From assembly GCF_038806765.1 (NCBI RefSeq), contig NZ_CP152389.1:124001-188000 (forward strand): a DNA stretch of 64,000 nt, in the 5' to 3' direction. Positions within the stretch are counted from its first letter, which is position 1, and every line of letters begins with the position of its first letter. Below the pieces are notes generated by a model, which saw nothing but the letters and a program-made list of their open reading frames with translations, was not told where the DNA came from and ran no database searches. The stretch is from Mucilaginibacter sp. CSA2-8R. GTDB taxonomy: Bacteria; Bacteroidota; Bacteroidia; Sphingobacteriales; Sphingobacteriaceae. Position numbers and translations under genes: made by a program. Shown here piece after piece: positions 44,287 through 48,125 of this stretch.

Positions 44287-44316
44287 TTTGCAGCGCCATA
44301 TTTCTTTCTATATTTG
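44287..44316 (+). promoter_or_regulatory. Promoter of the trp operon
   Basis: TTTG at 44287-44290, 18-base spacer, TATATTTG at 44309-44316. Both elements match the Bacteroidota consensus exactly. Transcription should start just before the leader-peptide ATG at 44328. Confidence 0.75.
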
Positions 44317-44327
44317 CCTTTGTATAT

Positions 44328-44372
44328 ATGACAAAACAATTGCATAATCTTGGCTGGTGGCACCTTAATTAA
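44328..44372 (+). CDS. trpL: trp operon leader peptide
   Basis: 14-codon frame MTKQLHNLGWWHLN with two adjacent Trp codons (44355-44360), starting about 12 bases after the -7 element and ending 108 bases before trpE. It is the classic sensor of an attenuator: scarce charged tRNA-Trp stalls the ribosome at the TGG pair and changes folding of the RNA downstream. It matches no protein and has no other evident role. Confidence 0.85.
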   Translation: MTKQLHNLGWWHLN

Positions 44373-44457
44373 AGGAGCCCGGTAAGTTTATGAATTAAAA
44401 AATTAAGCAATTATAAACCTGATTTGAGACCCGGCGCTAACCACGCCGGGTTTTTTT
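44373..44457 (+). promoter_or_regulatory. trp attenuator region with terminator
   Basis: After the leader peptide comes a segment with GTTTAT (about 44386) complementary to ATAAAC (about 44414). CCGG at 44379-44382 can pair with CCGG at 44431-44434 inside the terminator's 5' arm. These are candidate antiterminator pairings. The terminator itself is ACCCGGCG/CGCCGGGT (44429-44436 and 44444-44451) with a 7-base loop and seven T. Exact alternative pairing was not computed. Confidence 0.7.
44429..44457 (+). terminator. trp attenuator terminator
   Basis: Perfect 8-bp GC-rich stem ACCCGGCG/CGCCGGGT, loop CTAACCA, run of seven T, 22 bases before trpE. Confidence 0.88.
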
Positions 44458-44479
44458 ATGGATATTTGTTAACCCATTT

Positions 44480-45892
44480 ATGCAAAAGTTTAAACTACAT
44501 ACTAACTATAAAAAACTGCTTGCCGATACCACTACCCCGGTAAGTATTTATCTGCGATTGCGCGATATATTTCCTAATTCGTTGCTGTTAGAGAGTTCTG
44601 ATTACCATAGCCGAGATAACAGCTTAAGCTATATATGCTGTGAGCCTATTGCCGGTTTAGTTTTAAACCAGGGCGAATTGCGTGAGCAGTACCCAGATGG
44701 CAGTGAGGAAACTTTTGCTGCAGGGCAATTTAATCTGGTAAACCAGATAGATGCCTTTTTAAAACGTTTTGATGCAAACACCCTGCCGCTCAAAGTGATC
44801 AGCAGTGGTATGTTTGGTTATTTTACGCACGAGGCGGTAGAGCATTTTGAAACCATCACCTTAAAAAAAATAGCTGATGATCCTCGCAAGGTGCCCGAAA
44901 TGCAGTATCATATTTACCGATACATCATCGCTATAGATCATTTTAAGAACGAGCTTTATATATTCGAGAATCGTTTTGGTGAAACGCCGGATAACAACGA
45001 GGGTATTGAAAAAATGCAATACCTATTGAAGAGTAAAGATTTTCCGGAATATTATTTTCAAAGTAAAGACGCTGAGCAGTCGAACCTGACCGACGACGGT
45101 TTTATGGCCATTGTTGAGAAAATGAAGCAGCACATTTATCGTGGCGACGTTTTCCAGATTGTGCCATCACGTGCTTTTTCGCAAGCCTTTGCCGGCGATG
45201 AGTTTAACGTGTACCGAGCCCTGCGCTCCATTAACCCGTCGCCTTATTTGTTTTATTTTGACTACGGTGATTTCCGCATTTTTGGTTCATCGCCTGAGGC
45301 GCAGATTACCATCAAAAACCGGGTAGCCAGCATTTACCCTATAGCAGGTACATTTAAACGCACCGGTAACGACGAGAATGATGCCGAGGCTGCAAAAGCG
45401 CTTGAAAATGATCCTAAAGAATCTGCCGAGCACGTAATGCTGGTAGATTTGGCCCGTAACGATTTAAGTCGCCATTGCGAGCAGGTTGCCGTTAAGGCAT
45501 TTAAACAGGTGCAGTATTATTCGCATTTAATTCACCTGGTTTCGCATGTAAGCGGTAAGTTAAAGCCTAATGTTTCGTCGTTTAAAATAGTAGCCGATAC
45601 CTTCCCGGCCGGTACACTGAGCGGTGCGCCAAAATTTAGGGCGATGGAAATTATTGACGAGAACGAAAACGTTAAACGTAGTTTTTACAGCGGCGCGATA
45701 GGTTACCTGGGTTTTAATGGCGATTTTAACCATGCCATTATGATACGCTCGCTGCTAAGCAAAAATAGTGTATTACATTACCAGGCAGGTGCCGGTATTG
45801 TAGCTGATTCGGTTGCCCAAAGTGAACTTAACGAGGTCAATAATAAAGTAGCTGCCTTGCGTAAAGCTATTGAGATGGCGCAGGAATTGTAG
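44480..45892 (+). CDS. trpE: Anthranilate synthase component I
   Basis: 470-residue chorismate-using subunit of anthranilate synthase. LLLESSD at residues 35-41 contains the LLES motif of the Trp feedback-inhibition site. The catalytic half includes GDVFQIVPSRAFSQ, PSPYLFYFDYGDFRIFGSSPEAQ, YPIAGTFKRTG and the late AGAGIVADSV. It would form a complex with TrpG encoded 48 bases downstream. It is the first structural gene behind the leader-peptide attenuator, so both feedback inhibition and attenuation are implied. Confidence 0.96.
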   Translation: MQKFKLHTNYKKLLADTTTPVSIYLRLRDIFPNSLLLESSDYHSRDNSLSYICCEPIAGLVLNQGELREQYPDGSEETFAAGQFNLVNQIDAFLKRFDANTLPLKVISSGMFGYFTHEAVEHFETITLKKIADDPRKVPEMQYHIYRYIIAIDHFKNELYIFENRFGETPDNNEGIEKMQYLLKSKDFPEYYFQSKDAEQSNLTDDGFMAIVEKMKQHIYRGDVFQIVPSRAFSQAFAGDEFNVYRALRSINPSPYLFYFDYGDFRIFGSSPEAQITIKNRVASIYPIAGTFKRTGNDENDAEAAKALENDPKESAEHVMLVDLARNDLSRHCEQVAVKAFKQVQYYSHLIHLVSHVSGKLKPNVSSFKIVADTFPAGTLSGAPKFRAMEIIDENENVKRSFYSGAIGYLGFNGDFNHAIMIRSLLSKNSVLHYQAGAGIVADSVAQSELNEVNNKVAALRKAIEMAQEL

Positions 45893-45940: not shown

Positions 45941-46612
45941 ATGAATAATACAGACGGTAAAGTGGCCACAGAAAATAAAGGTGCAGGCAGAATTTTAATT
46001 GTAGATAATTACGACTCGTTTACTTACAACCTGGTGCATTTGATAAATGAATTAGGCTTGGAATGCGAGGTGTGGCGTAACGACCAGTTTAAGCTGGAAG
46101 ATATAGAACAGTTTGATAAAATTATTTTATCGCCGGGGCCGGGTATCCCATCTGAGGCGGGTTTGCTGCTGGATGTAATTAAGACGTATGCGCCTACCAA
46201 AAGTATATTTGGCGTTTGTTTAGGTCAGCAGGCTATTGCCGAAGCGTTTGGTGGCAGTTTGTATAATTTAAGCCGGCCAATGCACGGCATCGCAACGCCT
46301 GTTAAAGTAACTGATGCCACTGAGGCCCTGTTTACCGGTTTGCCCGAGCAAATTAATGTAGGCCGTTACCACTCATGGGTGGTTTCGAAAGAGGGTTTGC
46401 CTGATGATTTAGTAGTTACCGCCATCGACGAAAAAGATAACTCGATTATGGCACTGCGTCACAAAACATTAGATGTACGCGGTGTACAGTTTCATCCCGA
46501 ATCGGTACTTACCGAGTACGGTAAAGAAATGATGCGTAACTGGCTTAGCATACCATCGGTAGGCGGTTTTATAGAAAAGCAGGCAGCATCTTCAGAAGAG
46601 AATTTATATTAA
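45941..46612 (+). CDS. trpG: Anthranilate synthase component II (glutamine amidotransferase)
   Basis: 223-residue class I glutamine amidotransferase supplying ammonia to TrpE. It has LIVDNYDSFTYNLVH, LSPGPGIPSEAG, the nucleophile Cys93 in FGVCLGQQA and the His-Glu pair in VQFHPESVLTEYG. The first 17 residues (MNNTDGKVATENKGAGR) are a polar extension relative to most homologues; no better start is visible. p-Aminobenzoate synthases share this fold, but the context supports trp. Confidence 0.93.
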   Translation: MNNTDGKVATENKGAGRILIVDNYDSFTYNLVHLINELGLECEVWRNDQFKLEDIEQFDKIILSPGPGIPSEAGLLLDVIKTYAPTKSIFGVCLGQQAIAEAFGGSLYNLSRPMHGIATPVKVTDATEALFTGLPEQINVGRYHSWVVSKEGLPDDLVVTAIDEKDNSIMALRHKTLDVRGVQFHPESVLTEYGKEMMRNWLSIPSVGGFIEKQAASSEENLY

Positions 46613-46665: not shown

Positions 46666-47451
46666 ATGACAATATTAGATAAAATAGTACAGCGTAAAAA
46701 GAAAGAGGTAATGGCATCTAAAATGGTTACCTCTTATACACAATTAGAAGAGCGCGAATTATTTTCGCGGGAACCATTATCCTTCCGCGATTTTTTGCTG
46801 GATCCGGACCGTACCGGAATTATTGCCGAATTTAAGCGCAAATCGCCATCAAAAGGTATTATTAACGATGACGTTAAAGTTCGTGAGGTAACCAAGGCCT
46901 ATGAGCAGGCCGGTGCTTCGGCTTTATCGGTACTAACCGACCGCAACTTTTTTGGCGGTAGCAAAACCGATTTGCTCACCGCTGCCCGGTTTTGTTATGT
47001 GCCTATTTTGCGTAAGGATTTCATGATTGATGAGTACCAGATTGTGGAAGCCAAAACCCTGGGTGCCGATATTGTTTTACTGATTGCAGCTATACTTACG
47101 CCAGCCGAAATTAAACAGTTTGCGGCTCTGGCCAAAAGCATAGGCCTTAATGTACTGCTTGAGGTGCACAACCTGGAAGAGCTGGAGCGTAGCCTGGATG
47201 ATAACATAGATGCCGTAGGCGTTAACAACCGTAACCTGGCCGATTTTACCGTATCGGTCGAAAACTCGTTCCGGCTGGTAGAGCATATTCCTGATAGCTT
47301 CTTAAAAATATCTGAAAGCGCTATCAGTAACCCGGAAACCATAAAGCAATTAAAAGCGGTAGGCTTTAACGGCTTTTTAATTGGCGAAAATTTTATGCGC
47401 CAGGCCAATCCGGGTGCGGCAATGGAAGCCTTTGTGGCTGAATTGAAATAG
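46666..47451 (+). CDS. trpC: Indole-3-glycerol phosphate synthase
   Basis: 261-residue TIM-barrel enzyme that closes the indole ring from carboxyphenylamino-deoxyribulose phosphate. Catalytic and phosphate motifs appear in order: IIAEFKRKSPSKGII, LSVLTDRNFFGGS, LRKDFMIDEYQI, LLEVHNLEEL, GVNNRNLADF, ISESAIS and GFLIGENFMR. It follows trpG by 53 bases. trpD, trpF, trpB and trpA, which usually accompany it in this phylum, are not found next to it in this window. Confidence 0.95.
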   Translation: MTILDKIVQRKKKEVMASKMVTSYTQLEERELFSREPLSFRDFLLDPDRTGIIAEFKRKSPSKGIINDDVKVREVTKAYEQAGASALSVLTDRNFFGGSKTDLLTAARFCYVPILRKDFMIDEYQIVEAKTLGADIVLLIAAILTPAEIKQFAALAKSIGLNVLLEVHNLEELERSLDDNIDAVGVNNRNLADFTVSVENSFRLVEHIPDSFLKISESAISNPETIKQLKAVGFNGFLIGENFMRQANPGAAMEAFVAELK

Positions 47452-47525: not shown

Positions 47526-48125
47526 GTGAGCGAAAGAACCATTTTAAAACTGCAATTACCCACCGATCCGCGTTGGGTAACCAACGTGGTGGAAAGTAAT
47601 ATTGAGGAAATATTAACCGATCATGCTTTTTGTGAGCAAAAGGCGGCCAGTAATGCCATTACGCTCATTGTGCAAAATCCTAACCTGAGCGATTTGGTGC
47701 AGGAGATGGCTTTGCTGGTGCAGGAAGAAATGGATCACTTTAAGCGTGTACACGACATTATTTTGGCCCGCGGCTATACATTGGGCCGCGAGCGTAAAGA
47801 TGATTACGTAGGCGAGCTGCTCAAATTTATGAAAAAGGGTGGCAGCCGCGAAGAGCAACTGATAGACCGCCTGCTTTTTGCTGCTATGATTGAGGCACGC
47901 AGTTGTGAACGCTTTAAGGTGCTATCCGAAAATATCAATGATGCCGAGCTGGCCGCTTTTTATCATGAGCTGATGATTAGTGAGGCTACCCATTACACCA
48001 CCTTTATACGCCTGGCAAAAAAGTATGCCGGCAAAATTGATGTAGACAGCCGCTGGAATGCCTTTTTGGCCTATGAGGCCGATGTGATTAAAAATTACGG
48101 TAAAAAGGAAACTATACACGGTTAA
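47526..48125 (+). CDS. miaE: tRNA-(ms2io6A)-hydroxylase, MiaE-like
   Basis: 199-residue di-iron monooxygenase-like protein that hydroxylates the isopentenyl group of modified A37 in tRNA. The ferritin-like ligands are visible in VQEEMDHFKRVHD (E-x2-H), IEARSCERF and MISEATHYTTF (E-x2-H). The start is GTG at 47526 (MSERTILKLQLP), preceded by a partial -7 element only 5 bases before it. It follows trpC but has its own likely promoter. Other ferritin-like hydroxylases are possible, but the whole-length pattern fits MiaE well. Confidence 0.85.
   Translation: MSERTILKLQLPTDPRWVTNVVESNIEEILTDHAFCEQKAASNAITLIVQNPNLSDLVQEMALLVQEEMDHFKRVHDIILARGYTLGRERKDDYVGELLKFMKKGGSREEQLIDRLLFAAMIEARSCERFKVLSENINDAELAAFYHELMISEATHYTTFIRLAKKYAGKIDVDSRWNAFLAYEADVIKNYGKKETIHG

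Follow-up and report, generated by a model that had tools for sequence, protein, structure and literature searches.

The region upstream of trpE-trpG-trpC in the window (the whole stretch of 64,000 nucleotides analysed here) is very probably a ribosome-mediated transcription attenuator of these three genes. This reading draws on the sequence elements, their conservation, the covariation of their stems and calculated fold energies. A short ORF with tandem Trp codons is located between a promoter and the first structural gene, an intrinsic terminator lies 5' of that gene, and there are three mutually exclusive pairings (1:2, 2:3 and 3:4), of which 1:2 and 3:4 covary and 2:3 is nearly invariant. 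The operon contributes to synthesis of the amino acid that would be sensed. From promoter to U-tract, the elements are as follows.

44287–44290, plus strand: –33 element TTTG of a Bacteroidota sigma-A promoter (strict promoter match in the sequence; equivalent motif in the genus alignment)
44309–44316, plus strand: –7 element TATATTTG (TAnnTTTG), 18-base spacer to TTTG
44321, plus strand: predicted transcription start, placed according to TAnnTTTG in Flavobacterium psychrophilum
44328–44372, plus strand: trpL leader ORF MTKQLHNLGWWHLN and its stop codon, seen in the sequence and conserved among relatives
44355–44360, plus strand: tandem Trp codons 10 and 11 (TGGTGG), the putative sensing site, invariant in the genus
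44359–44379, plus strand: post-Trp hairpin (segments 1:2), with GGC 44359–44361 paired to GCC 44377–44379 and CCTT 44363–44366 to AAGG 44372–44375
44377–44382, plus strand: segment 2, GCCCGG, the antiterminator strand, alternatively paired with segment 1 (from the alignment and stalled-ribosome folds)
44430–44450, plus strand: intrinsic terminator hairpin (segments 3:4), CCCGGCG-CTAACCA-CGCCGGG, a 7-bp G+C-rich stem (from the alignment and folds)
44451–44457, plus strand: terminator U-tract of seven T, seen in the sequence

An earlier note on this DNA had claimed a consensus promoter consisting of TTTG, 18 bases and TATATTTG, and this is indeed present. The 64-kb window contains five strict matches to TTTG-N16-21-TAnnTTTG, of which this is one, and 66 of the 71 genus loci have a TAnnTTTG consensus box 5' of the leader. 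In F. psychrophilum, TAnnTTTG has been placed at –12 to –5 (PMC9723704); transcription would thus start near 44321, so that the predicted 5' UTR of the leader comprises about 7 nt. The same rule predicts a still shorter 5' UTR for the genus (median 4 nt over 66 loci) and for other Sphingobacteriaceae (median 2 nt, 37 loci), and a longer one for Flavobacteriaceae (median 12 nt, 40 loci). In published work on the phylum, the median 5' UTR is 24–32 nt and leaderless or very short 5' UTRs amount to about 4–6%, so the trp leader would be one of a small class. The trpL ORF is therefore predicted to be nearly leaderless, in a layout that is conserved. Initiation close to the predicted transcript start, which had been remarked upon before, is consistent with this and has a precedent in Sinorhizobium meliloti trpL (PMC7298713).

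The leader itself was also correctly described as 14 codons with two adjacent TGG: the ATG is at 44328–44330, the codons run to 44369, and the stop codon, TAA, occupies 44370–44372. The leader RNA is more stable than dinucleotide shuffles (z –2.3). Such an ORF might nevertheless be fortuitous, with the hairpin and T-run being merely a terminator (e.g., of upstream transcription) or the site of a protein regulator. Short ORFs are common, and on both strands of the whole window there are 1016 ATG sORFs of 6–35 aa; WW, however, occurs in only 4 of these, and here the WW frame is positioned between promoter and terminator. The same frame, with WW at codons 10–11 or 11–12, is kept in 66/66 genomes of the genus (Mucilaginibacter-like), and a tandem-Trp ATG ORF is found 5' of trpE in 77 of 80 named Bacteroidia, compared with 1/80 when these regions are read on the opposite strand. 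Conservation refutes the fortuitous reading in practice, and it is regarded as extremely unlikely.

These counts come from trpE-upstream regions at 90 loci of the family, plus further family and class genomes, and from two wider sets made up of 20 more-distant phylum members and the 80 named genomes. Two of the three named genomes that have no tandem-Trp ORF are represented by 159 bases or less of upstream sequence. A tandem-Trp leader precedes trpE in 28/28 further class members and in 15 of the 20 distant ones; in one other genus of the family (g3) the leader has a single Trp at the WW position, or none was detected. Two of the distant phylum members (L125, L126) have a leader reading TWAWFWF before trpE, in which Trp is mixed with Phe, and joint aromatic sensing is possible there. 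The nearest named relatives of TrpE are from Mucilaginibacter species (76–78% identity). Aligning relatives upstream of trpE, a check suggested in the earlier note, revealed the Trp-rich leader frame, the alternative stems and the terminator in nearly all; a lack of such a frame and stems, which the note had named as refuting its proposal, was therefore not observed. The conserved frame with its WW in every genus genome is the strongest evidence that the feature is real, and suggests that the leader ORF is translated.

Within the genus, the first Trp is codon 10 in 64/71 loci and codon 11 in the other 7, and indels 5' of WW in the alignment are multiples of three, i.e. whole codons. Residues 2–9 of the leader vary freely while the Trp position is nearly fixed. 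This pattern bears on a second possibility, that the leader acts as a TnaC-type nascent-peptide sensor of free tryptophan, or that the ribosome controls access to trpE translation. Trp-containing leader peptides do occur in TnaC systems, but arrest peptides need fixed residues, whereas those around WW vary freely in the genus. The tandem UGG codons, the antiterminator and the intrinsic terminator with its U-tract are consistent with codon starvation, and since the genes are biosynthetic, induction by starvation would be expected. A nascent-peptide sensor or control of trpE translation is thus very unlikely, and transcription attenuation by a ribosome starved for charged tRNA-Trp is the preferred reading.

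Support for each helix was scored on a genus alignment of 63 rows, using register-slid pairings as controls. A covarying hairpin directly follows the Trp codons; it is the competitor of the antiterminator and had been missed in the earlier note. Its base, GGC:GCC, is almost invariant (98.9% of cells paired), and its apical helix shows double changes at 5/5 pairs with 86% of cells paired, compared with 13–53% for the slid controls (four-pair core). Variants of the apical helix include CCAA:TTGG, CTTAC:GTAAG and GGTA:TACC. The terminator is paired in 96.2% of cells, and 3 of its 8 pairs have changed on both sides; as previously claimed, it is GC-rich, is followed by seven T and lies just before trpE, whose ATG is at 44480.

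Of the alternative pairings proposed earlier, that of CCGG (44379–44382) with the terminator arm has stood up. The antiterminator core, GCCGG:CCGGC, is paired in 97.5% of cells; it is nearly invariant in the genus alignment, so that covariation lends it no support. In the window, segment 2 carries an extra C, which allows 4 contiguous bp, or 5–6 bp around a bulge. Compared with dinucleotide shuffles, the complete antiterminator segment is of ordinary stability (mean z –1.1), and its conserved part is the GC core. The post-Trp hairpin excludes the antiterminator because both use the same GCC, and the antiterminator excludes the terminator because CCGGC is the terminator 5' arm. The decisive alternative is that between the post-Trp hairpin and the GC core.

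The second proposed pairing, an A/U extension of the antiterminator, has not fared as well.

44386–44418, plus strand: A/U extension of the earlier note, GTTTAT (44386–44391) with ATAAAC (44413–44418), no better than slid or shuffled controls

The window and the genomes nearest to it can form this pairing, which is unsupported across the genus. The pairing is possible in 59% of cells, a value equalled by one slid register; the fold was no weaker when the interior was shuffled and the GC arms were kept, and RNAalifold dropped the extension, keeping only GCC:GGC. Between segment 2 and the terminator, the genus shows strong sequence conservation at 44403–44419 (consensus CTAATCAATTGTAAACC). For this stretch, including its conserved TAAACC, a pairing partner is without support in the genus alignment.

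Folding of the leader RNA, free or with the leader region blocked by a ribosome, is a further check that had been suggested and is in good agreement with these alternatives. For the stalled state, a ribosome footprint was placed at the first Trp codon, the transcript was ended at the terminator 5' arm and the minimum-energy fold was calculated. The stalled nascent RNA folds into the antiterminator in 64/66 genus genomes. In all 66, free RNA adopts both the post-Trp hairpin and the terminator, and RNA with a ribosome at the stop codon forms the terminator. Segment 2 is covered by the ribosome at the stop codon in 47 of 66 genomes, including that of the window; in the remaining 19 the stop codon is too far 3' for a parked ribosome to cover segment 2 fully. 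The extra C makes the antiterminator core of the window weaker than in most relatives, with a stalled fold of about –9.7 kcal/mol. Once the terminator 3' arm has been made, the terminator is the minimum-energy state in all genomes, even with the ribosome stalled. Antitermination must therefore be kinetic, depending on the order of synthesis as in E. coli.

We suggest that attenuation would operate as follows. RNA polymerase would start near 44321, and a ribosome would load on the leader ORF almost at the 5' end of the transcript. With charged tRNA-Trp plentiful, the ribosome would pass both Trp codons, reach the stop codon and cover segment 2 (GCCCGG), which could then not pair with segment 3; the CCCGGCG/CGCCGGG terminator would form and transcription would stop before trpE. 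With charged tRNA-Trp scarce, the ribosome would stall at the Trp codons and mask the start of the post-Trp hairpin, leaving segment 2 to pair with the terminator 5' arm, so that termination would be prevented and trpEGC made. Without translation, the post-Trp hairpin and the terminator would form, giving termination by default. The conserved WW frame, the covarying stems, the terminator and the folds all support ribosome stalling of the E. coli type, as the earlier note had proposed.

The genes downstream were assigned using NCBIfam models, and are arranged as follows.

44480–45892, plus strand: trpE, anthranilate synthase component I (top hit TIGR00564 trpE_most, E 1e-128, 430 bits, under the cut-off of 517.7)
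45941–46612, plus strand: trpG, anthranilate synthase component II (TIGR00566 trpG_papA, over cut-off)
46666–47451, plus strand: trpC, indole-3-glycerol phosphate synthase (NF001377, over cut-off)

A gene for a miaE-like tRNA hydroxylase is found 3' of trpC, at 47526–48125. The genome is a single contig of 5.3 Mb, in which trpD and trpF are split off and located at 4.07 Mb. These two genes are preceded by a second Trp leader, MNIQNNNWWWLNE, outside the window (L227:2619-2660, minus strand; genome about 4075510–4075551). It has its own terminator, GGGTTGCCCGCAAGGCAGCCC-T7, and an antiterminator match GGCAATC:GGTTGCC, and its sequence is unlike that of the trpE leader. A Trp leader is present before trpD in 18/18 genus genomes having trpD in the search. 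That the two parts of the split pathway would be attenuated in parallel lends further support to the attenuator reading for trpE. Also outside the window, the region upstream of pheA contains a terminator and a leader rich in Phe and Tyr, MKLNNAFGFGFYYFYFSSKSRD (L145:1335-1459; genome about 1035607–1035731). MKLNNAFGFGFYYFYFSSKSRD is followed by AGCCGGGACT, a copy of the terminator 3' arm, and this is probably a Phe attenuator. No leader stood out in a simple scan upstream of hisG, ilvD and homoserine dehydrogenase, and the terminator ahead of ilvD lies directly 3' of the preceding gene.

The target of the antiterminator strand is not the same in all lineages. In Sphingobacteriaceae and Chitinophagaceae, the post-Trp leader segment matches the terminator 5' arm. 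In Flavobacteriaceae it matches the terminator loop and the first three bases of the 3' arm at 45/46 loci, and the 5' arm at 0/46; the match is between GTCGTGA, which includes the TGA stop codon, and TCACGAC. For Cytophagales the corresponding figures are 10/17 and 0/17. Examples of loop matching from these two groups are loci L097, L190, L175 and L224. Leader segments fit their own loops better than those of other genera (one-sided Wilcoxon p 0.001 over ten genera; mean score 14.9 vs 9.7). Folds of the stalled nascent RNA show the loop captured at 45 of 46 Flavobacteriaceae loci. Covariation of the base next to the loop-capture helix is weak in Flavobacteriaceae (14/44 paired vs 12.1 expected; Fisher p 0.03, one contrast). 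This helix lies outside the window and is put forward as a lead, drawn from the matching of own loops across lineages; no description of a loop-capture antiterminator was found in the open literature. There is perhaps an even chance that near-leaderless tandem-Trp attenuation is an old form of trpE control in Bacteroidota, whose lineages have since diverged in antiterminator target (5' arm, or loop plus 3'-arm start).

In a permissive Rfam scan, the best match of all families was RF00513 Trp_leader, matched over its full length (24.5 bits, E 0.0041) at a score below the gathering score of 41. The leader would work like this family, yet is not a member by the Rfam rule. The same scan bears on control of the operon by a T-box, a TRAP-type element or a riboswitch, all of which are alternative means of trp-gene control in other phyla. 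No Rfam family reaches its gathering score anywhere in the window, and the permissive scan contained no T-box while its top match was a Trp leader; the chance that such an element controls the operon is practically negligible.

The E. coli trp leader peptide has 14 codons, with GWW at positions 9–11. The leader in the window also has 14 codons with GWW at 9–11, but since relatives differ in leader length and in residue 9, this exact match is probably a coincidence. The order of elements is shared with the E. coli and other enterobacterial attenuators: promoter, leader ORF with Trp codons 10–11, post-Trp hairpin, antiterminator using the 5' arm, terminator and trpE. In contrast to E. coli, a 5' UTR of only about 7 nt is predicted, the promoter is of the Bacteroidota type, and the operon consists of trpEGC only, with trpD-trpF elsewhere. 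The arrangement also resembles that of S. meliloti trpL/rnTrpL, with its (near-)leaderless trpL, tandem Trp codons, attenuation of trpE(G) and split trp operons (PMC7298713). The S. meliloti transcript starts exactly at the ATG, whereas here the predicted start is a few nt upstream; S. meliloti belongs to a different phylum, and attenuation there is confined to one of three trp operons.

Within the phylum, a report on F. psychrophilum describes strong clues that amino-acid operons are preceded by leader-peptide attenuators (PMC9723704), and one on Bacteroides thetaiotaomicron describes sORFs in long 5' UTRs, reminiscent of leader-peptide attenuation (PMC7366714). In its accessible part, neither report names a trp leader or presents a comparative structure. 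Attenuation is taught from Proteobacteria, and the open literature was found to hold only hints for Bacteroidota. Lopatovskaya et al. (2010), as cited in PMC4833913, carried out a comparative study of attenuation across bacteria, and some Bacteroidota trp leaders may have been predicted there. As seen here, almost all of the class, together with further lineages of the phylum, has a trp leader before trpE. Bacteroidota ribosomes rarely use Shine-Dalgarno sites, and the timing of transcription and translation has hardly been studied in this phylum. With its start codon predicted to lie a few bases from the transcript start and its nearly fixed distance to the Trp codons, the leader would be a ready reporter of the way in which near-leaderless initiation is coupled to RNA polymerase in this phylum. 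The mechanism is known and of the textbook type; what is new, as judged from the open literature, is a documented, phylum-wide member in Bacteroidota.
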